Positions 3,129-39,469 of a stretch of DNA of 64,000 nt are shown here, piece by piece (within the stretch, counting starts at the first letter, position 1; each line of letters starts with the position of its first letter). Under the pieces are notes generated by a model, which made no database searches, was not told where the DNA came from, and saw only the letters and a list, made by a program, of their open reading frames with translations. The stretch covers positions 1-64,000 of the forward strand of contig CACIRV010000002.1 in NCBI GenBank assembly GCA_902589155.1. The letters are read 5' to 3'. Made by a program: the position numbers and the translations under genes. This DNA comes from an uncultured Pelagibacteraceae bacterium (GTDB lineage: Bacteria; Pseudomonadota; Alphaproteobacteria; Pelagibacterales; Pelagibacteraceae).

Positions 3129-3944
3129 TTATAATTTTGAAATTATTAAGTTTGACTTAATGTAGCTCTCAAGAGTTCCTGAGTCCAAATATTTTCCTCT
3201 AAAGATATTTCCATAAAATTTTTCGCCTTTTTCGATTAAGGTTTTGATTGCGTCTGTGATATGTATCTCTCCACCTTTTCCTTTTTTTTGATTTTTTAAA
3301 ACAGAAAGAATTTTTTTAGGTAAAATATATCTTCCAATTATGGCATAATTTGATGGTGCTTCTTTCAATTTAGGCTTTTCAATTACTTCATTAATTGAGA
3401 ATGAATACTTTTTTTTGTCTTTAACCCCTAAGATTCCCCATCTCGAGACTGTTCTTCTTTCTACTTTTCTAGTTGCTATTACAGATCCCTTTGTTTTTTT
3501 ATGTAAAGAAATCATTTCCTTTGAACAATTTTTTTTAACAATTAAATCATCTGCAAGAAGCATCAAAAAATGTTTATCTTTTAAATATTTTTTACATTTC
3601 AAGACAGCGGCTCCTGTTCCATCGGGTTTATTTTGATATACAAATTTTATCATTTTTTGGTACTTCTTAATTCTTTTGAAAATTTCTTTTAATTTTTTGT
3701 CTTTTTTTTTCTTTTTTATTAGTTTTTTATAAAAAATATCATTGAAAAAATAATTTTTTATAGTGGGTCTGTTTTTAGGAACTATAAAAATGAACTGCTT
3801 GATTCCAGCTTCAACGCATTCTTCCATTATGTACTCTAAATTTGGCTTACCATTTAATGGTAGTAACTCTTTTTGAATTACACTAGTTAAAGGCAACAAT
3901 CTTGTTCCTAAACCTGCTAGTGGAATAATTGCTTGTTTTATCAT
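3129..3944 (-). CDS. galU: UTP-glucose-1-phosphate uridylyltransferase
   Basis: Makes UDP-glucose from UTP and glucose-1-phosphate. The 271-residue protein opens with the nucleotidyltransferase signature IPLAGLGTRLLPLT followed by QKELLPLNGKP. It also has NKPDGTGAAVLKC, the metal-binding LLADDLI segment and a VIEKP motif, in the order seen in bacterial GalU. It is slightly shorter than E. coli GalU (about 300). It forms a two-gene operon with ugd. The start ATG at 3944 is 38 bases from the divergent panC start, so both promoters must lie in or beside this short gap. Confidence 0.92.
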   Translation of the reverse strand: MIKQAIIPLAGLGTRLLPLTSVIQKELLPLNGKPNLEYIMEECVEAGIKQFIFIVPKNRPTIKNYFFNDIFYKKLIKKKKKDKKLKEIFKRIKKYQKMIKFVYQNKPDGTGAAVLKCKKYLKDKHFLMLLADDLIVKKNCSKEMISLHKKTKGSVIATRKVERRTVSRWGILGVKDKKKYSFSINEVIEKPKLKEAPSNYAIIGRYILPKKILSVLKNQKKGKGGEIHITDAIKTLIEKGEKFYGNIFRGKYLDSGTLESYIKSNLIISKL

Positions 3945-3982
3945 ATGATTCTCTTAATACTTAATATCACTACAGTAAATAA

Positions 3983-4798
3983 ATGAAAATATTTAAAAGT
4001 AAACATAAATTAAAAAAAGAGATTTCGAATATCAAAAATATATCTTTTGTGCCTACAATGGGTGGTTTACACAAAGGCCATATATCATTAATCAAAAAAT
4101 CACAAAGTTTTGGAGCCAAAACGTTGGTTTCTATATTTGTCAATCCTAAACAGTTTAATGAAAAGAAAGATTTTCTTAACTATCCACGTAATTTAAAAAA
4201 AGATTTAAAAATATTAAAATATTTAAATACTGATTTGGTTTATATTCCACACTTAAAAGATATCTTTTCATTTAAAGTTAAAAATAAGATTTTTTTAGAC
4301 AAATTTTCAAAGAAGCTTTGTGGCAGATCAAGAGAAGGTCATTTTAAAGGAGTGTTAAATATTGTTAATAGATTTTTAGAATTAATTAAACCTAGATATA
4401 TTTTTTTAGGTATCAAAGATTTCCAACAATCATATTTGATTAATAAACATATATTAAAAACAAAAATTAAAACAAAAGTAATTAATTGTAAAACAATAAG
4501 AGAAAAAAATGGTGTAGCCTGCTCTACTAGAAATAATAATTTAAACTTACATCAATATAAAATTGCCTCCAATGTCATTAAGTATCTAAAAAATAAAAAA
4601 AGAATGATCAAAAAAAATCTTTATAATTTTAGACTTGCTGATATCAAAAAAGATTTAATAAAATTAGGAGTTTCAAAAATTGACTATATAGAAGTATATA
4701 ATTTAAAAACTCTAAAAAAACCTAAGCATACAAGAGAAAAATTTAGAATTTTTATTGCTTTTTATCTTAATAAAACCAGGTTAATAGATAATATTTAG
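3983..4798 (+). CDS. panC: pantothenate synthetase
   Basis: Condenses pantoate with beta-alanine using ATP, the last step of vitamin B5 synthesis. The 271-residue protein has the HxGH motif within PTMGGLHKGH (His30 and His33), SIFVNPKQF, the GIKDFQQ substrate site, GRSREGHFKGV, and the C-terminal KMSKS-like VACSTRNNNL. The motifs and spacing match the cytidylyltransferase-fold PanC family. The sequence is very lysine-rich, as expected in this A+T-rich genome. It converges on mgtE, sharing a four-base overlap of stop codons (4795-4798). No panB is visible nearby. Confidence 0.92.
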   Translation: MKIFKSKHKLKKEISNIKNISFVPTMGGLHKGHISLIKKSQSFGAKTLVSIFVNPKQFNEKKDFLNYPRNLKKDLKILKYLNTDLVYIPHLKDIFSFKVKNKIFLDKFSKKLCGRSREGHFKGVLNIVNRFLELIKPRYIFLGIKDFQQSYLINKHILKTKIKTKVINCKTIREKNGVACSTRNNNLNLHQYKIASNVIKYLKNKKRMIKKNLYNFRLADIKKDLIKLGVSKIDYIEVYNLKTLKKPKHTREKFRIFIAFYLNKTRLIDNI

Positions 4799-6174
4799 TT
4801 AAGAAAATAATAAGAACCTAATCCTAAAAAAGATAGAAAACCTATCACATCTGTTATCGTAGTTACAAATACGCTTGAAGCTAAAGCTGGGTCGATGTTC
4901 ATTTTTTTTAAAGATACAGGAACTAGTATTCCAAATAAACCCGCTACAATCATGTTTAAAATCATAGATACACCAATTAATAAAGATAAACTTATTTCCT
5001 TAAACCAAAGATGTACAATTACTGCTGTAATAACGGCAAAAATAATTCCATTTAAAATTCCAATAATAAATTCTTTTCCAACAACTCGATTAAAGTTACT
5101 TGATGATAATTCTTGTTTTGCTATTGCTCTTATAGTTACTGCCAAAGTTTGCATTCCCGCATTTCCACCCATTGATGCTACTATTGGCATTAAAAAAGCC
5201 AAAGCAACCATTTGTTCTATTGAAGCTCCAAAATTACTTATCACCCAAGTTGCTAGTAGTGCTGTAAATAAATTTAATAATAACCAATTGAATCTTCTTT
5301 TTGTTTTAATGAGAACACTATCAGTTATTTCTTCATCACCAACACCAGCTAGCCTTAAAGCATCTTCTTCGGCTTCCTCTTGAACAACAGTAACGACATC
5401 ATCTGCTGTGATCATACCTACTAATTTATTATCCTTATTAACTACACCTGCTGAAACTAAATTGTAACTTTCAAATGTATGTCCAACTTCTTCTTTGTCC
5501 ATATTTACTGAAATTAAAACTGGCATTTCAGCCATGATAGAATTCATTTTTGACTCTCTGGAAGTTCTTAAGACTCTAGAGGAAGGTACCGTTCCTACAG
5601 GTTTGAAATCATTATCAACAATAAAAATTTCCAGAAATTCTTTAGGAAGATCTTTATTCTCTCTTAAATAGTCTATAGTTTGGCCAACACTCCAGTCACT
5701 AGGAACAGCTGTAAACTCTCTTTGCATAATCCTGGCTGCAGAATCTTCTGGATAACTTAAACCTTCTTCCAAGAGAAACTTATCTTTAGGTGGTAATTTT
5801 TCTAAAACTGTTTCCTTTTTATTTTTCTCTAAATTCTCTAATATTTTAATTGAGTCATCAGACTCAAGTCTTTTAATTATATTAATTATTGACTCAGTTG
5901 ATAAAAGTTGAAGAACTTCGCTTTGAATAGACTCGTTTAATTCAATAAAAATGTCTGGATCTATATTAAATTCTTCTAGTTCAATTAACTTAATTCTCGT
6001 CTCATTAGACAAATTTTCTATAAGATTTGCTACATCTGACTCATGCAAATCTTTAAGTGTTTGATTGATAAATTTAATGTCAGAAGACTGAATTTTTTCA
6101 GAAAAAGTATTAATAAATTCTTTATTAAAATCGAGATTGACCTTTTTGTTTCCTGTCGATTTAACTAAAGTCAT
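4795..6174 (-). CDS. mgtE: MgtE-type magnesium transporter
   Basis: An inner-membrane Mg2+ channel gated by cytoplasmic Mg2+. The 459-residue protein has an N-terminal helical MgtE_N superhelix (about 1-130), two CBS domains (about 130-250) and then about five membrane segments. The pore signatures GGNAGMQTLAVTIRA and FVTTITDVIGFLSF are present, including the gating aspartate in TTITD. I chose ATG at 6174 rather than the in-frame GTG six bases upstream, because an AGAGG ribosome-binding site sits at the right distance from the ATG and directly abuts the GTG. It converges with panC and diverges from lipB. Confidence 0.92.
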   Translation of the reverse strand: MTLVKSTGNKKVNLDFNKEFINTFSEKIQSSDIKFINQTLKDLHESDVANLIENLSNETRIKLIELEEFNIDPDIFIELNESIQSEVLQLLSTESIINIIKRLESDDSIKILENLEKNKKETVLEKLPPKDKFLLEEGLSYPEDSAARIMQREFTAVPSDWSVGQTIDYLRENKDLPKEFLEIFIVDNDFKPVGTVPSSRVLRTSRESKMNSIMAEMPVLISVNMDKEEVGHTFESYNLVSAGVVNKDNKLVGMITADDVVTVVQEEAEEDALRLAGVGDEEITDSVLIKTKRRFNWLLLNLFTALLATWVISNFGASIEQMVALAFLMPIVASMGGNAGMQTLAVTIRAIAKQELSSSNFNRVVGKEFIIGILNGIIFAVITAVIVHLWFKEISLSLLIGVSMILNMIVAGLFGILVPVSLKKMNIDPALASSVFVTTITDVIGFLSFLGLGSYYFLN

Positions 6175-6233
6175 AAACACCTCTGATTGTTTTTTGAGAC
6201 TAATAGTCCATAAAATGATAAATTACAAACTAA

Positions 6234-6846
6234 ATGAGCATAGAAGTGAAAATAAGCAAAAGACCTGTTTGCTACAAATTTGCTATGAATTTTCTTCATA
6301 AGCGCGTTGAGCAAGTAAAAGCTAACAAGAAAAGAGAATTGTTATGGATTTTAGAACATCCTACTACTTATACAGCGGGTATAAGGTCAAGTAGCGAAGA
6401 GGTTGTAGATAAAAAGATTAAGATCATTAATACTAACAGAGGAGGAAAAATTACACTACATAATCCTGGCCAAAAAATTATTTATTTTGTTTTGAATTTA
6501 AATAATAGAAAAAAAAGATATTAGAAAATTAATAAGCATAATTGAGAAAAGTATTATTGAATTTTTATGGCTTCATAAAATTAAGGGAAAAAAAGATAAA
6601 AAAAACATAGGTATTTGGGTAAATAAAAAAAAGATTGCTGCTATTGGTTTAAGAGTATCTAAATGGATCGCATATCATGGATGTTCAATAAATATAAGCA
6701 ATAATCTTAAACAATACCTTAAAATTATTCCATGCGGATTAAATAATCAAAAAATAACATCTGTATATAATGAAAACGGAATACTAATTAAAGATATTGA
6801 AAAAAAGTTAAAAAATATTTTTATAAAAAATATAAATAAAATTTAA
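6234..6846 (+). pseudogene. lipB: octanoyl (lipoyl) transferase, frameshifted at an A8 tract
   Basis: LipB moves octanoate from acyl carrier protein to lipoyl domains, the first step of lipoic acid synthesis. The first frame (6234-6524) carries the N-terminal half (LEHPTTYTAG, GGKITLHNPGQKI) and then stops. The other half continues in the next frame from 6517 to the TAA at 6844-6846. It contains the catalytic lysine in KKIAAIGLRVSKW (Lys133 after repair) and the catalytic cysteine in IIPCGL (Cys167). Dropping one A from the run at 6509-6516 restores one 203-residue protein of normal length with every motif intact. It may therefore be a sequencing/assembly error, a fresh mutation, or a gene read by polymerase slippage. 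The repaired stop overlaps the rluC stop by four bases. Confidence 0.85.
6509..6516 (+). other. A8 homopolymer, site of the lipB frameshift
   Basis: Eight consecutive A residues preceded by AATAG and followed by GATATTAG. With seven A residues the two lipB halves read as one frame; with eight the frame hits a stop three codons later. Runs like this are prone both to sequencing indels and to transcriptional slippage. Confidence 0.8.
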
Positions 6847-7751
6847 AATTCTCTTTTTAAAAAATCTTCAAAATTTTTATTGTATTTAGCCTTAAAATTA
6901 TATTGAGTATTATTGATCATAAATTTAATTTTATAAGCATGTAGCATCAAACTCCTACTTTTTATCTTAATTCTACTTAATTTTCTATTTATAAAATATT
7001 TATCATCTCCCACTATAGGATTGCCAATATTATAAAGCTGTTTTCTTAATTGATGTTTTCTTCCAGTAATTGGATTAAGTTCAACGTAAGAATAGTTATC
7101 AGATGACTTCAGAATTTTTAAATGAGAAATTGCTTTTTGTATTATTCTTTTATTATTTTCATATAAAATGAGATCATCTTTTAGTGTAGTTTTTAACTTT
7201 GAAACTTTGCCATGTGTTAATGCTACATACGTTTTGTGTATTTTTCTTATTCTAAAAAGAGAAGTAAACAATTGTGCATACTCTCTTGATTTAGCAACAA
7301 TTAAAATACCAGAAGTTTCTTTGTCTAAACGATGAACAATATAAGGTTTCTGGTTTAAAAAGTATTTTGAATCTTTTAATATATCGATTATATTTTTAAA
7401 TGATTTTGTTCCAGATTGAACAGCAATACCTGCAGGTTTATTTATGATAATAAAGTTTTCATTATTTTCTATAATAAAATCATTGTAAATATTTATTTCT
7501 TTTTTTGATGGTTTATATTTTAATATTTTAGGTCTATTATTTTCTTTAAACTTTGAAATATCATATATTTCAACTATATCGCCGTATTGTACTCTATAAG
7601 AAGATTTTACTTTTTTTTTGTTAATTTTTACTTTGTTTAGTCTAATAATTTTTTCTATTAATGATTGAGGAAGACTAATTATTTTTGCTTTAAACCATTT
7701 ATCAAAACGTGTGTTTTGATAATCTTTTTCTACAGTATATGTTTTTGGCAT
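6843..7751 (-). CDS. rluC: RluA/RluC-family 23S rRNA pseudouridine synthase
   Basis: Converts specific uridines of large-subunit rRNA to pseudouridine. The 302-residue protein has an N-terminal S4-type RNA-binding domain (about 1-75, including QSLIEKIIRLNKVKINKKK). The catalytic RluA domain has the HRLDKETSGILIVAKS motif (catalytic Asp143), ending in the GRKHQLRKQL and SLMLHAYKI motifs. S4 plus RluA and this length fit RluC/RluD; the exact target uridines cannot be read from the sequence, so the symbol is a best guess. It lies 12 bases downstream of rplQ on the same strand and could be the last gene of that transcript. Its 3' end overlaps lipB. Confidence 0.85.
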   Translation of the reverse strand: MPKTYTVEKDYQNTRFDKWFKAKIISLPQSLIEKIIRLNKVKINKKKVKSSYRVQYGDIVEIYDISKFKENNRPKILKYKPSKKEINIYNDFIIENNENFIIINKPAGIAVQSGTKSFKNIIDILKDSKYFLNQKPYIVHRLDKETSGILIVAKSREYAQLFTSLFRIRKIHKTYVALTHGKVSKLKTTLKDDLILYENNKRIIQKAISHLKILKSSDNYSYVELNPITGRKHQLRKQLYNIGNPIVGDDKYFINRKLSRIKIKSRSLMLHAYKIKFMINNTQYNFKAKYNKNFEDFLKREF

Positions 7752-7763
7752 GTAGAGCTAAAA

Positions 7764-8207
7764 CTATTTGCTTGCTACTTTTTGATCTGCTTTTTTTTCG
7801 TTTTCTTTTTTATCAATTTTTTTTGGTTTGTCGACTTTTTTTGCTTCGGGATTTCTATCTACTAATTCAATGACAGCCATTGGAGCATCATCACCAGTTC
7901 TGAATCCTGCTTTTAAAACCCGACAATATCCTCCTTTTCTAGTACTGTATCTTTTTGATAGCTCATCAAAAACTTTAGTGACCGATTGTTTGTTTTGAAG
8001 TTTGGAAAATAGTCTTTTTTTATTACTCAATATATTTTTTTTTCCAATTGTAATTACCTTATCTACTTGAGGTTTCAGTTCTTTTGCTTTTGGCAATGTA
8101 GTAATTATTTGTTCATACTTAATAAGAGAATTAAGCATGTTTTTAAACAAAGCTTTTCTGTGTTCGCTTGTTTTATTCAGCTTTCTATAACCAATACCGT
8201 GTCTCAT
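7764..8207 (-). CDS. rplQ: 50S ribosomal protein L17
   Basis: Large-subunit protein L17, 147 residues. The conserved N-terminus [23 protein letters not shown] appears in full (shown here only in part: RHGIGYRKLNKTSEHR), followed by the RxGDxAPMAVIELVDR-like end of the core domain. Beyond the core there is a charged tail of about 30 residues, rich in K, D and E, which is not needed for the fold. It is the last ribosomal gene of the supercluster and abuts rpoA with a one-base overlap, the standard rpoA-rplQ order. Confidence 0.97.
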   Translation of the reverse strand: MRHGIGYRKLNKTSEHRKALFKNMLNSLIKYEQIITTLPKAKELKPQVDKVITIGKKNILSNKKRLFSKLQNKQSVTKVFDELSKRYSTRKGGYCRVLKAGFRTGDDAPMAVIELVDRNPEAKKVDKPKKIDKKENEKKADQKVASK

Positions 8208-9241
8208 TAGTAATTATTTTCTTCAAGTTTTTTAGATAATTCAGCAATATTATCTGGTGGCCAATTTGGTATTTCCATCCCAAGATATAAAGACATAGTA
8301 TTTAAAACTTCTTTGATTTCATTAAGAGATTTTCTACCAAAATTTGGTGTTCTTAGCATTTCTGGTTCAGTTTTTTGTACTAAATCTCCTATATAGATTA
8401 TGTTATCATTTTTAAGACAGTTCATTGATCTAACTGAAAGTTCAAGTTCTTCGACTCTCTTTAATAAATTTCTATTAAATTCTGGCTCTGAAGATTTAAC
8501 TTCTTTAATAATCTCTTTAGGATCTTCAAAATTTACAAACATTGACAATTGATCTTGAAAAATTCTAGCTGAATAAGCTATTGCATCTTCTGCAGCTATA
8601 GTGCCATTAGTTTCCACTGTCATAACTAATTTATCATAATCAAGAGCGCTTCCAGCTCTGGTATTTTCTACTGAAAATGAAACTTTTTTTACTGGGCTAA
8701 ATAGAGAATCTATTGAAATTAATCCTAATGGGCTTTCCTCGGTTCTATTCTTAGGAGCTGCAACATATCCTTTTCCACTACTAATCATTAATTCCATGTG
8801 AAAATTTGTTTTTTCATCCAAATTGCATATAGTTTGTTCTGGATTTAAAATTTCTACTTCAGGTACAAGTGTAATATCTTTCGCTTTAACCTCTTTAGGT
8901 CCTTTTATATCTAGAATAATTTTCTTTGTACTTGTAGATGAAGATTTTATTGCTAAATTTTTAACATTTAATACAATATCCGTAACATCTTCTCTTACGC
9001 CTTTGATTGAAGAAAATTCATGAAGTACACCATCTATTTGAATAGCACTTACTGCTGCGCCTTGTATAGATGATAATAAAATTCTTCTTAAAGAGTTGCC
9101 AATAGTTTGACCAAATCCTTTTTCCAATGGTTCTGCGATAACTTTTGCAATAGTTTTATCTTCATTACTTGTAATTTCTAATTTATCAGGTTTAATTAAA
9201 GCTTTCCAATTTTTATCTATAACACTTGATGTAGTTTGCAT
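8207..9241 (-). CDS. rpoA: RNA polymerase alpha subunit
   Basis: The alpha subunit, which nucleates RNA polymerase assembly and contacts promoters and activators. The 344-residue protein has the N-terminal dimerisation domain ([32 protein letters not shown]). A flexible linker follows at about 235-255, then a C-terminal helix-hairpin domain with [19 protein letters not shown] and [16 protein letters not shown], the surface that binds UP elements. The length is normal for the alphaproteobacteria. It sits between rpsK (contiguous) and rplQ (one-base overlap) at the end of the alpha operon. Confidence 0.97.
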
Positions 9242-37371: not shown

Positions 37372-37447
37372 GCCCTCATAGCTCAATTGGTAGAGCAATT
37401 GATTTGTAATCAATAGGTTCGCGGTTCGAGTCCGTGTGAGGGCACCA
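37372..37447 (+). tRNA. tRNA-Thr (anticodon UGU), target of a small integrated element
   Basis: A 76-base cloverleaf: acceptor GCCCTCA/TGAGGGC, discriminator A and an encoded CCA. The anticodon loop TTTGTAA gives UGU, which reads ACA/ACG threonine codons. Its last 43 bases before the discriminator (37401-37443) recur exactly at 38289-38331, as expected when an integrase-type element inserts at a tRNA 3' half and rebuilds it. Confidence 0.96.
37401..37443 (+). repeat. att-like direct repeat, left copy (inside tRNA-Thr)
   Basis: A 43-base segment covering the anticodon arm (from the middle of its 5' strand), the variable loop, the T arm and the 3' acceptor strand. It is identical to 38289-38331. 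After it the left copy continues ACCACCA, giving discriminator and CCA. Confidence 0.85.
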
Positions 37448-37534
37448 CCAACTAAGTAAATCCTAAACTTTTAAATTTATAAAAAAATTATCTTACAGAA
37501 CAACAGTGATACAAGTGATGAAAATGTATTTCGT

Positions 37535-37579
37535 TGTGGTGTCTATGTGGTGTCCGAGATTAAACTTCTTGACCAATGA
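37535..37579 (+). repeat. inner direct repeat, left copy, with paired TGGTGTC boxes
   Basis: A 45-base segment that matches 38189-38233 in 40 positions. It contains two TGGTGTC boxes starting at 37537 and 37548, 11 bases apart (one helical turn), and then a shared AAACTTCTTGACC. It lies about 90 bases inside the left att-like repeat. Its right end is 17 bases from the stop of the cargo gene. The pair of boxes is what an integrase arm-type binding site might look like; that role is inferred. Confidence 0.7.
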
Positions 37580-37596
37580 ATTTTGAAAATACGTAT

Positions 37597-38163
37597 TCAC
37601 TTTACTAATTGGAATCTTACAAGTTCACTGTTAAGTAAAGCAATTTCACCTCTATCTGAATAATTAAGTCTTTTATCTATCTTTGTGCACCATATTCTTA
37701 CAGCACCCTCATTTGAAGGAAAGAAATAATCATTGGAATATGCCTTAGAATTTTTCATATCTTTAGATTTATATTTAGTAATTACTTCTTCTCTAAACTT
37801 AGCTTTGGGTAAAACAATACTTAAATCCTTAATTGCATCCTTTTTCCATTTAATACATTTGTTAAATTGATCTTTAAAAATTATTGTGCCTTTAATTCCT
37901 TGTATAATATATTTTTTATCATTTTTTTTTAAGGTAAATCCTATTTGAGAGTATTCACCACTATTCACATTCACAAAAACCATATAGAAATCACTTCCTT
38001 CATAATAGTTTTTTTGAAAATTTAAAATTTGTTTTTCTCCATAAAAATTCAACAAGCTATCACCTATGCTCATTCCCTCTATCTGAAAGTCTCTAATATC
38101 GTCTGCCTGTGATGGAAATATCAAGCATATTTTTAGAATAATTATAGCTAAAATCTTTTTCAT
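37597..38163 (-). CDS. putative exported protein, cargo of the tRNA-Thr element
   Basis: A 188-residue protein of unknown function. The N-terminus (KKILAIIILKICLIFPSQADD) reads as a cleavable signal peptide ending near residue 20, so it is probably periplasmic. The mature part begins IRDFQIEGMSIGDSLLNFYG, contains several aromatic and lysine-rich stretches, and has two cysteines well apart (KCIKWK and WCTKID). No known domain is evident. It is the only gene between the two pairs of direct repeats. A TAGACA/TATAAT promoter ends right at its start codon, so the message would be leaderless. I cannot say what it does; the IEGMSIGDS segment is the best handle for a homology search. Confidence 0.75.
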   Translation of the reverse strand: MKKILAIIILKICLIFPSQADDIRDFQIEGMSIGDSLLNFYGEKQILNFQKNYYEGSDFYMVFVNVNSGEYSQIGFTLKKNDKKYIIQGIKGTIIFKDQFNKCIKWKKDAIKDLSIVLPKAKFREEVITKYKSKDMKNSKAYSNDYFFPSNEGAVRIWCTKIDKRLNYSDRGEIALLNSELVRFQLVK

Positions 38164-38170
38164 TTAAATT

Positions 38171-38199
38171 ATTATAAAAAATAAAATTTGTGGTGTCTA
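38171..38199 (-). promoter_or_regulatory. promoter of the cargo gene, -35 inside the inner repeat
   Basis: On the minus strand TAGACA (38194-38199) is followed after 17 bases by an exact TATAAT (38171-38176). The expected start of transcription is at or next to the ATG at 38163. The -35 hexamer is the complement of part of a TGGTGTC box. The left copy of the repeat also offers TAGACA but has no -10 at the proper distance. Confidence 0.55.
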
Positions 38200-38233
38200 T
38201 ATGGTGTCCGAATATAAACTTCTTGACCGATGA
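38189..38233 (+). repeat. inner direct repeat, right copy, with paired TGGTGTC boxes
   Basis: The partner of 37535-37579 in the same orientation, with five mismatches in 45. Its TGGTGTC boxes start at 38191 and 38202, again 11 bases apart. It begins 26 bases upstream of the cargo start codon and ends 55 bases before the right att-like repeat. Confidence 0.7.
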
Positions 38234-38288
38234 CTCCACTATCCTTTGTTATCAATGATACAAGAAAGAATAATGTACCTTGCTTGAA

Positions 38289-38331
38289 GATTTGTAATCA
38301 ATAGGTTCGCGGTTCGAGTCCGTGTGAGGGC
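38289..38331 (+). repeat. att-like direct repeat, right copy (tRNA-Thr 3' fragment)
   Basis: An exact copy of 37401-37443. It holds no 5' half, so it is not a tRNA gene. The next bases are GCTATC, so discriminator A and CCA are missing. It lies five bases from the stop codon of the GT61-like gene on the opposite strand. Confidence 0.85.
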
Positions 38332-38335
38332 GCTA

Positions 38336-39469
38336 TCAAATATCTTTTAAACCTAAGAATTTAAGTTCTTTTTTGATTTTATCAATTGGACATAATAATA
38401 ATCCATTTTGTAATATTCGAGATTTGACAAGAGGTTTTAAAATTATTTGTCTATGTTTTAAGTTATTTAATTTTGAAATATTCTTAAATTCCATTCCACC
38501 ACCAATAGGTTTAAATTCTAAAACTTTTGTTTTTTTCTTGCAAAAAGCTAGCATCATCATTGCTGCACCATATAAACCTACAACATATTTTGCGCTTGAA
38601 AACATTTTTAATTGATCTGAAAAAGAATACTCTTCAGGTTTAATAGTTATAAAACCAATTGAGGTTAAATAACTTTTTATTTCATTCTCATTAACTAAAA
38701 CTCGATATTCAGAATACTTCTTTAAATTATTTTTATCTATTAATTTAAATTGATCACGATTAATAAATATTTTTTCATATTTTTTTAAGTTAGATCTCTT
38801 TTTATAAATTTTATTTAAGTATTTGATTGACCATTTTTTAACCATAGTTGGTTTGTGAAAGCATGGATGAGTTGTAGCGTATATCTTATTAGCCTCAATG
38901 TGTTTATATTTTTCAGATGAAATTACATTGCTTTGATTGATGCCAAAATATGACAATGACTCTCTTTGAAACTTATATTTTATACTTGGTACATAAAATT
39001 TATCTATTTTTTTTAAATTAAATTTTTCCTGATAAATCTTAATTCTTGGTATAATATCTGTAAACCAGTGAGTAAAATTATCTCTTGCTGCCCCACCAGA
39101 AAGCAAACTTAATAAGTTTCCGTTGATTTTTTTTTTAAATTTAGGAGTTCCTTTTGATAAAACTTCATTTTTAGAAAATTTTTGCATTTTGCTATTAATA
39201 AAATCAAACTTTTTATACTGAAGCGATGCCTCTGAAATATTATTATTTTTTGATATATATGCAGTGGTGTCGTTTCCATCTGTAAAAATTCTTCCTCCTG
39301 TAAACTCAAACAACTTATATAAATTTTTATCAAGTTTTATATCAATAATTTTTTCTGAAAAATCTTTTTTTTTAAGTCTAAGCTTAGGTTTTTTATATAA
39401 AAAAAGAAATGTAACTTCGATTATCTTTTTATAAGTAAATTTTACTTTTTTTTTTAAAAAACTAAACAT
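38336..39469 (-). CDS. glycosyltransferase family 61-like (DUF563) protein
   Basis: A 377-residue protein resembling GT61 capsular or EPS glycosyltransferases. The evidence is the central GGAARDNFTHWFTDIIPRI (the family NxxHWxxDxLPR motif) and the C-terminal YVVGLYGAAMMMLAFCKKKT followed by KVLEFKP (family VxGxHGAxxxNxxF and VLE). The N-terminal 35 residues are very basic and hydrophobic and may attach to the membrane; no cleaved signal is seen. The sugar and acceptor are unknown. It lies three bases downstream of nadK on the same strand and ends at the right border of the tRNA-Thr element. Confidence 0.7.
   Translation of the reverse strand: MFSFLKKKVKFTYKKIIEVTFLFLYKKPKLRLKKKDFSEKIIDIKLDKNLYKLFEFTGGRIFTDGNDTTAYISKNNNISEASLQYKKFDFINSKMQKFSKNEVLSKGTPKFKKKINGNLLSLLSGGAARDNFTHWFTDIIPRIKIYQEKFNLKKIDKFYVPSIKYKFQRESLSYFGINQSNVISSEKYKHIEANKIYATTHPCFHKPTMVKKWSIKYLNKIYKKRSNLKKYEKIFINRDQFKLIDKNNLKKYSEYRVLVNENEIKSYLTSIGFITIKPEEYSFSDQLKMFSSAKYVVGLYGAAMMMLAFCKKKTKVLEFKPIGGGMEFKNISKLNNLKHRQIILKPLVKSRILQNGLLLCPIDKIKKELKFLGLKDI

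Follow-up and report, generated by a model that had tools for sequence, protein, structure and literature searches.

In the passages of the literature drawn on here, integrative elements without an integrase of their own appear under several names. CIMEs are defined as islands that have decayed from integrative elements, keeping attL and attR and lacking the integrase (PMC5704250), and 15 islands at ssrA in Dehalococcoides are described without integration modules (PMC3146451). CALINs and MITEs are presented as helper-dependent (PMC11389934), and PICMI as carrying int, alpA and a primase (PMC10803314). In Methylopumilus, another streamlined group, the additive islands of fGI-2 range from 330 bp to 42 kb and are preceded by repeats that copy the final 20 nt of tRNA-Lys; tycheposons span 4-200 kb with a tyrosine recombinase (PMC10872708). 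For Pelagibacterales, tyrosine recombinases and tRNA genes have been noted beside one operon (PMC12416821), and the main text of a SAR11 study mentions neither integrase nor cassette nor direct repeat (PMC7318151).

The locus analysed here lies in a 64,000-nucleotide stretch (the window), part of contig C2 (162,803 bases) of a 778-kb Pelagibacteraceae genome in 20 contigs that is 70% complete. Its integration target is a tRNA-Thr (TGT) gene at 37372-37447 on the plus strand (ARAGORN), within which lies the left core (attL side, 37401-37443, plus); an exact copy forms the right core (attR side, 38289-38331, plus). The two are identical over 43 nt, lie 888 nt apart start to start and derive from the 3' half of the tRNA gene. 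Alignment of the ends places the left end of the unit (P' side) at 37444-37560 and the right end (P side) at 38186-38288, both on the plus strand. A single gene stands between the cores, at 37597-38163 on the minus strand, with a translation of 188 aa whose N terminus resembles a signal peptide by eye. Just outside the unit, a glycosyltransferase family 61 (GT61) gene (38336-39469, minus; Pfam PF04577, 9.8e-25) separates the tRNA-Thr locus from the NAD-kinase gene. An HMM built from eight integrases, that of an element in genome G300 among them, matched 1 of 201 ORFs from 56 tRNA-Thr units, namely G300's own (G300_u1), and thus found no integrase in the window unit. Both observations of the first-pass annotation, an exact 43-base duplication of the tRNA-Thr 3' half around one gene and a lone cargo gene with no integrase, therefore hold; judged from the comparisons below, they are real and understated, a small case of what appears to be a broad system. 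We consider it probable that the window unit is a minimal non-autonomous cassette, integrated in trans by the integrase of a satellite or phage.

Inside the cores lies a further pair of repeats which that annotation overlooked, 46 nt long at 37534-37579 and 38188-38233 and 89% identical. It holds GTGGTGTC in tandem, in two copies with an 11-bp period: the left arm-type direct repeat, GTGGTGTC-TAT-GTGGTGTC (37536-37554, plus), starts 93 bp after the left core, and the right one, GTGGTGTC-TAT-ATGGTGTC (38190-38208, plus), starts 99 bp ahead of the right core. At a tolerance of two mismatches, the pattern GTGGTGTC-N3-RTGGTGTC matches the 64 kb twice, both times exactly and inside the unit; 100 shuffles gave a mean of 0.00 matches. 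Of 169 genus genomes, 6 carry the exact window arm pattern, at nine places that all lie at tRNA-Thr loci. A second repeat pair 93-99 bp inward of the cores is, as read from the DNA, the layout of integrase arm sites, and the locus has what an attachment site should have, a core with arm-type repeats on both sides, seen in the arm pairs here and in the covariation described below. In a circularised unit, a single core would have the two arm pairs around it, their starts 235 bp apart. A viral contig of high G+C (L108) has GTGGTGTC pairs at a distance of 233 bp and, near them, an integrase with an Arm-DNA-bind_3 domain; this observation from outside SAR11 supports reading GTGGTGTC pairs as integrase arm sites. 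The arms are predicted targets of an integrase's arm-binding domain, a domain (PF13356) present in the G300 integrase.

The exact genus core and arm patterns were found in 0 viral contigs, and a looser arm pattern in at least 120 viral stretches. Most of the 80 such loci examined look like chance. In three of the 80 (L068, L108 and L123) a second arm lies 60-400 bp away, and all three have an integrase match within 700 bp, a link that is partly circular in that L068 and L108 belong to the HMM, Pfam confirming both as integrases. Integrases occurred within 600 bp of 5/80 viral arm loci versus 104/4000 random positions, a comparison that is weak alone.

The right end also carries a promoter-like sequence. 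A motif scan placed TAGACA-17-TATAAT (11/12 positions; 38171-38199, minus) so that it reads into the cargo, with its -35 element within the right arm repeat; it is the best of eight such sites in its region, where 5.9 are expected. A match of at least 10/12 in the same region and direction is present in 13 of the 56 units, against 2.3 expected from shuffles and two units in each of three control scans. In 50/56 units an antisense ORF with an ATG start has its beginning no more than 400 bp from the right core; in 21 of them the distance is 93-95 bp. The right end thus looks like an arm site combined with a promoter.

Both ends of the window unit (~190 bp on the left including the tRNA, ~140 bp on the right) recur around other cargo in G054, G098 and G092. 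In G054 they enclose one different secreted protein, in G098 a complete type I restriction system, HsdM/S/R (Pfam, PADLOC), and in G092 a 12-kb set whose arms each have one repeat rather than two; with the window unit, this makes four cargos between both conserved ends, with an integrase match in none. The left end including the tRNA is 95% identical at the DNA level in G054 (query 1-183) and in G064 (1-188) and 91% in G098 (1-182), and it is partial in G092 and G079, while the right end with its core is 90-97% identical in G054, G098, G109, G144, G025 and G092. Not every carrier is complete: the right core of G054 is damaged, the contig of G064 stops after the left end, and G079 has a truncated right arm and has lost the right core. 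The right end only is present in G109, G144_u1 and G025. Since it is all that they have in common with the window, G109 and G144_u1 may be composite. G109 has four arm pairs over 14 kb and only two detectable cores, no inner core being found at up to nine mismatches, and G144_u1 encodes a 289-aa and a 1612-aa protein. A second unit follows in tandem in G144, with a 1033-aa restriction-like helicase and other arms (TGTATTGTT), and G100 holds a second type I system with the arm pair TGTACTGTTC. In G025 (L043, 9169-9310) the right end, core and arm, is inverted relative to tRNA-Thr, either an amplification chimera or a second element. In G064 (L039) the NAD-kinase match lies upstream, not downstream, of the tRNA-Thr that bears the window's left end, on a contig that is rearranged or chimeric.

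Empty sites exist as well. The window flanks joined by script (1522 nt) match 4 of the 73 loci in the BLAST set, and these four have tRNA-Thr and GT61 without the unit. They align in full to G101 (82%, 1530 columns), G121 (72%) and G096 (69%), and to G010 at 77% from query position 120; in these four unit-free relatives the GT61 gene directly follows tRNA-Thr. In 33 of 74 oriented loci (75 were supplied, one having no tRNA match by script), the NAD-kinase match starts 11-17 bp past the core. The first-pass annotation had called for empty tRNA-Thr sites and for other cargo between the same repeats, and had named as its counter-case a segment fixed everywhere, with neither empty nor alternative sites; the four relatives and the 33 NAD-kinase-adjoining loci supply the former, G054, G098 and G092 the latter, so that both kinds of site exist.

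Beyond the immediate relatives, the 43-nt core pattern has at least one exact match in 268 of 397 family genomes and two or more in 40, with none for a reversed-pattern control. Core positions were taken in 44 genomes picked for two matches, of which 42 belong to the large genus g4. Tandem arrays are present, for instance in G400 (four cores) and in G200, G290, G302 and G398 (three each), at spacings from ~0.6 kb; G200 and G207 are single-contig genomes (99% complete). We assembled 56 tRNA-Thr units bounded by two cores, a chosen rather than random set, with 541 to 13,851 nt between cores (median 1747), 39 of them under 2.5 kb and 10 under 1 kb. Units of the first set could deviate from the core by up to 10 mismatches and the remaining units by up to 8; the damaged right core of G054 was placed by hand, and the array-like G109 was entered as one unit. 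The set excludes G064, whose contig stops too early, G025, with its inverted right end, G079, which has no right core any more, G030, whose tRNA the script did not match, and G402, in which the cores are split over two contigs. It also excludes the tRNA-Thr regions of G288, G311, G314 and G335 and fetched loci lacking a second core. Among the 55 units with a 100-aa ORF, the longest ORF runs antisense to the tRNA in 51. One locus in G341 (L378, 0-7.1 kb after tRNA-Thr) is a unit with ten pilin-like genes whose N termini are near-identical (FTLIELLVVVAIIGILAAVGVVAYNGYT).

Across the 56 units, left and right arms tend to match each other. True pairs average 15.05 in their best ungapped left-right arm score, and mismatched pairs 9.00; the observed sum is reached by 0 of 20,000 permutations. 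With eight window-genus genomes removed, the 47 remaining units score 14.09 versus 9.01 (0 of 5000 permutations), and in a control using segments further inward, 52 units score 8.49 versus 8.52, with 2812 of 5000 permutations at or above. The ranks speak against a simple reading: for 21 units the true partner scores highest among the 56, and for 29 it is one of the top three, the other 27 falling outside them; lower ranks arise because related units have arms in common, and in some units, for example those of G207 and G209, no matched arms are visible. Arm sequences that vary between units and tend to match within a unit look like addresses.

What might read such addresses is suggested by two integrase-bearing elements. 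At tRNA-Thr in G300 sits a 7.7-kb element. Its integrase, of 451 aa, combines PF13356 Arm-DNA-bind_3 with PF00589 Phage_integrase; a small protein matches HTH_17 weakly, and a protein of 768 aa contains DUF5906 and is, in our reading, primase-like. The arms of the element, TGTAGTCAA, lie at positions similar to those of cassette arms, the most similar cassette arms being those of G363 and G352_u1. Integrases of the G300 type occur in 6 of 397 family genomes, G300 included; four others lie three near tRNA-Lys, -Arg and -Pro and one near no tRNA. The Phage_integrase profile was searched in 169, 46 and 80 genomes, with few candidates scored per genome, so that genes could be missed; among its matches, compared by eye, only that of G300 falls inside a fetched unit. 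G338 and G331 were considered as carriers of integrase-bearing units and rejected, their integrase matches lying near tRNA-Thr with no second core. In G331 (L482), tRNA-Tyr and tRNA-Thr are ~9 kb apart with a Phage_integrase match between them, compared with ~1 kb in the window, perhaps another integration event just upstream of tRNA-Thr. Eleven regions around other window-genus integrases, chosen as larger than or unlike the common 309-325-aa matches, contain no tRNA-Thr, and 10 of the 11 have another tRNA.

The second element comes from the viral collection, in which a wider tRNA-Thr pattern matched 77 stretches. We chose L463, an 8.9-kb contig, for having the lowest G+C (0.30); it is absent from the list given by a five-integrase HMM. 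Its genes include an integrase, a terminase small subunit and an AAA_25 ATPase whose PHROG matches are helicase/primase-like. It also contains a tRNA-Thr core at which ARAGORN calls no tRNA gene, with arms on either side, making this a free attP. No terminal repeat was found in it, and from its gene content it is probably a phage satellite. Over 22 nt its P arm is identical to the left arm of an integrase-less cassette, G373_u1, the next cassette scoring 13; the arm spacing differs, at about -88/+99 in L463 (counted by hand) and -77/+71 in G373_u1. A search that reaches close relatives only returned no other viral relatives of the L463 integrase. On the 77 stretches, the five-integrase HMM matched 10 ORFs in 10 contigs of G+C 0.46-0.61 (L394, L407, L414, L420, L432, L436, L438, L440, L445 and L464), each combining a tRNA-Thr 3'-half match with an integrase match and possibly representing tRNA-Thr-targeting phages of other hosts. 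A search of the phage collection matched 201 records, none covering over 80% of the query, and the 20 matches listed fall in its tRNA part. The integrase with a matching att site that the first-pass annotation had called for is thus found in part: G300 and the L463 attP have the same core, and the search of SAR11 genomes and viral contigs turned up no integrase element whose arms are the GTGGTGTC type of the window.

The cargo itself belongs to a variable family whose N terminus is best conserved. Export of the 188-aa protein would fit this N terminus, and the protein has no Pfam match at E<=1 and one weak PHROGs match (E 0.0047), annotated as of unknown function. Its structure model is of good confidence (pLDDT 87.7); Foldseek gave a best E of 5e-3, and VIA-align pointed to DcrB (3.8 A over 111 residues) and SciW (4.3 A over 107 residues), both at Z 7.0, in the range that the tool calls common, and so to no decisive structural neighbour. 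By eye, family members are present in units of G000, G054, G064, G079, G092 and G109, and paralogues also lie on contig C3 of the same genome. There, seven cargo-family genes (by eye) stand in tandem (L322, C3:65000-84500, at 3875-8698), a local expansion away from tRNA-Thr. At ~26-29.6 kb on C3 (L321) lies a permuted tmRNA gene, called by ARAGORN only, with no Rfam RF00023 match there. A 25-nt piece of it, GGCACCTGGCAACAGAACGCCCCTT, is repeated downstream, whole at +718 and partially at about +2500 and +2941, with the secreted-protein family of the cargo between the copies and no matched arms seen; this tmRNA site is a possible second cassette hot spot.

Set against the described systems, the units share with CIMEs and the Dehalococcoides ssrA islands attL and attR at an RNA gene, the lack of an integrase and a tandem arrangement that would fit accretion, as far as those accounts go. 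The window unit retains both attachment sites at its target (exact cores, arms, an empty site) and has no integration or transfer genes, its single gene being the cargo; no ICE or IME parent was seen, and its integrase-bearing relatives look satellite-like. Unlike in CIMEs, the two ends form a conserved module that encloses several cargos, the arms covary within units, and 39/56 units stay below 2.5 kb. Integron cassettes and CALINs are likewise small tandem cassettes relying on an integrase encoded elsewhere (PMC11389934), but the boundary layout would set the present units apart: a tRNA-derived core with arm repeats where integron cassettes have attC hairpins recognised by IntI, and a promoter-like cassette end. 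PICI, P4-like elements and PICMI also integrate site-specifically, here at a tRNA, and are autonomous in doing so, whereas the window unit lacks the genes of these phage satellites and would need a satellite or phage even to integrate; an integrase of its own with regulator or replication genes is absent from it and partly present in L463 and G300. Tycheposons and additive islands are, similarly, cargo islands at tRNA genes of marine or freshwater streamlined bacteria; the window unit is tRNA-bounded as they are and has no tyrosine recombinase, and arm sites and trans helpers are absent from the description given in the part of PMC10872708 cited here. MITEs, too, are tiny non-autonomous elements using a helper enzyme (PMC11389934), but have transposase inverted repeats where these units have tyrosine-integrase-type attachment ends at one target. 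In the open literature searched, we found no description of address-coded arms, a shared promoter end or integrase-less SAR11 tRNA cassettes. The cassette would be a variant within the known non-autonomous integrative elements, like a CIME or a MITE-like hitcher, with mobilisation in trans likely.

The nearest rival holds that the unit is a decayed island, a CIME produced by deletion: what is left of a once autonomous tRNA-Thr element, shrunken and deprived of its integrase, and by now either fixed or mobile only in cis together with a neighbour. It fits the CIME definition (PMC5704250), and the integrase-less Dehalococcoides islands have been read in the same way (PMC3146451), as far as these sources were drawn on. 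Deletion would leave arm-bearing ends, and the four arm pairs with two cores of G109, the truncated right arm of G079 and the several units without an arm match are the kind of wear it would predict. We nevertheless think it unlikely, since four cargos lie between both conserved ends with an integrase match in none, 10/56 units are under 1 kb and the integrase HMM matches 1/56, and the regular placing of the cargo start codon, which in 21 units falls 93-95 bp away from the right core, is not what random deletion would produce. The first-pass annotation had offered both branches, a last remnant or a borrower of an integrase; borrowing fits best, as an inferred process, and the remnant less well.

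Cargo could instead be swapped by DNA uptake and homologous recombination through the tRNA-Thr and right-end flanks, with no site-specific step. The common ends of 140-190 bp could give the homology, and such exchange could yield units with only the right end in common, yet insertion is precise and core-bounded at the tRNA 3' half and has empty sites; the tandem arrays, the arm covariation within units, and the G300 integrase element and L463 free attP of similar layout also speak against it, all of these being marks of integrase attachment sites, and we rate it very improbable. Least credible of all is an artefact of assembly or amplification in single-cell or metagenome assemblies. At least five carriers bear single-cell-type isolate names, presumably amplified single cells, and the inverted right end of G025 is what a chimera might look like, but at least two exact cores are present in 40/397 genomes, the single-contig G200 and G207 included, with 0 for the reversed control.

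For a cassette integrated in trans, the circular form would have an attP in which an arm-type direct repeat (GTGGTGTC, 11-bp period) lies on each side of the 43-nt core from the tRNA-Thr 3' half. A tyrosine integrase would come in trans from a co-resident or infecting phage satellite or phage and recombine this attP with the intact tRNA-Thr 3' half, regenerating the tRNA gene, and the arm sequence would serve as the address that sets which integrase moves which cassette. The promoter-like right end could provide expression of any cargo placed there, and an integrase bound at the right arm could repress it. Of these steps, integrase action in trans is likely; excision, transfer in phage particles, and promoter function and control we infer from sequence features. 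Whether this extends to an integron-like but integron-free form of gene exchange in SAR11, in which promoter-ended, address-coded satellites of satellites are loaded serially at tRNA-Thr by the matching phage-satellite integrase, we regard as an even chance.

SAR11 bacteria are among the most abundant cell lineages and have small genomes, and to our knowledge few mobile elements have been recognised in them. How they gain variable genes is an open question, for which address-coded, integrase-less cassettes would supply a mechanism, one that would escape island finders that look for an integrase. A code open to testing would follow, linking arm sequence to the arm domain of the integrase. If the reading is true, the lower size limit of an integrative element would be a single gene between two attachment ends, with a promoter built into them, and restriction systems and a fast-diversifying secreted family would circulate at almost no genome cost, a cheap form of gene swapping for streamlined genomes.
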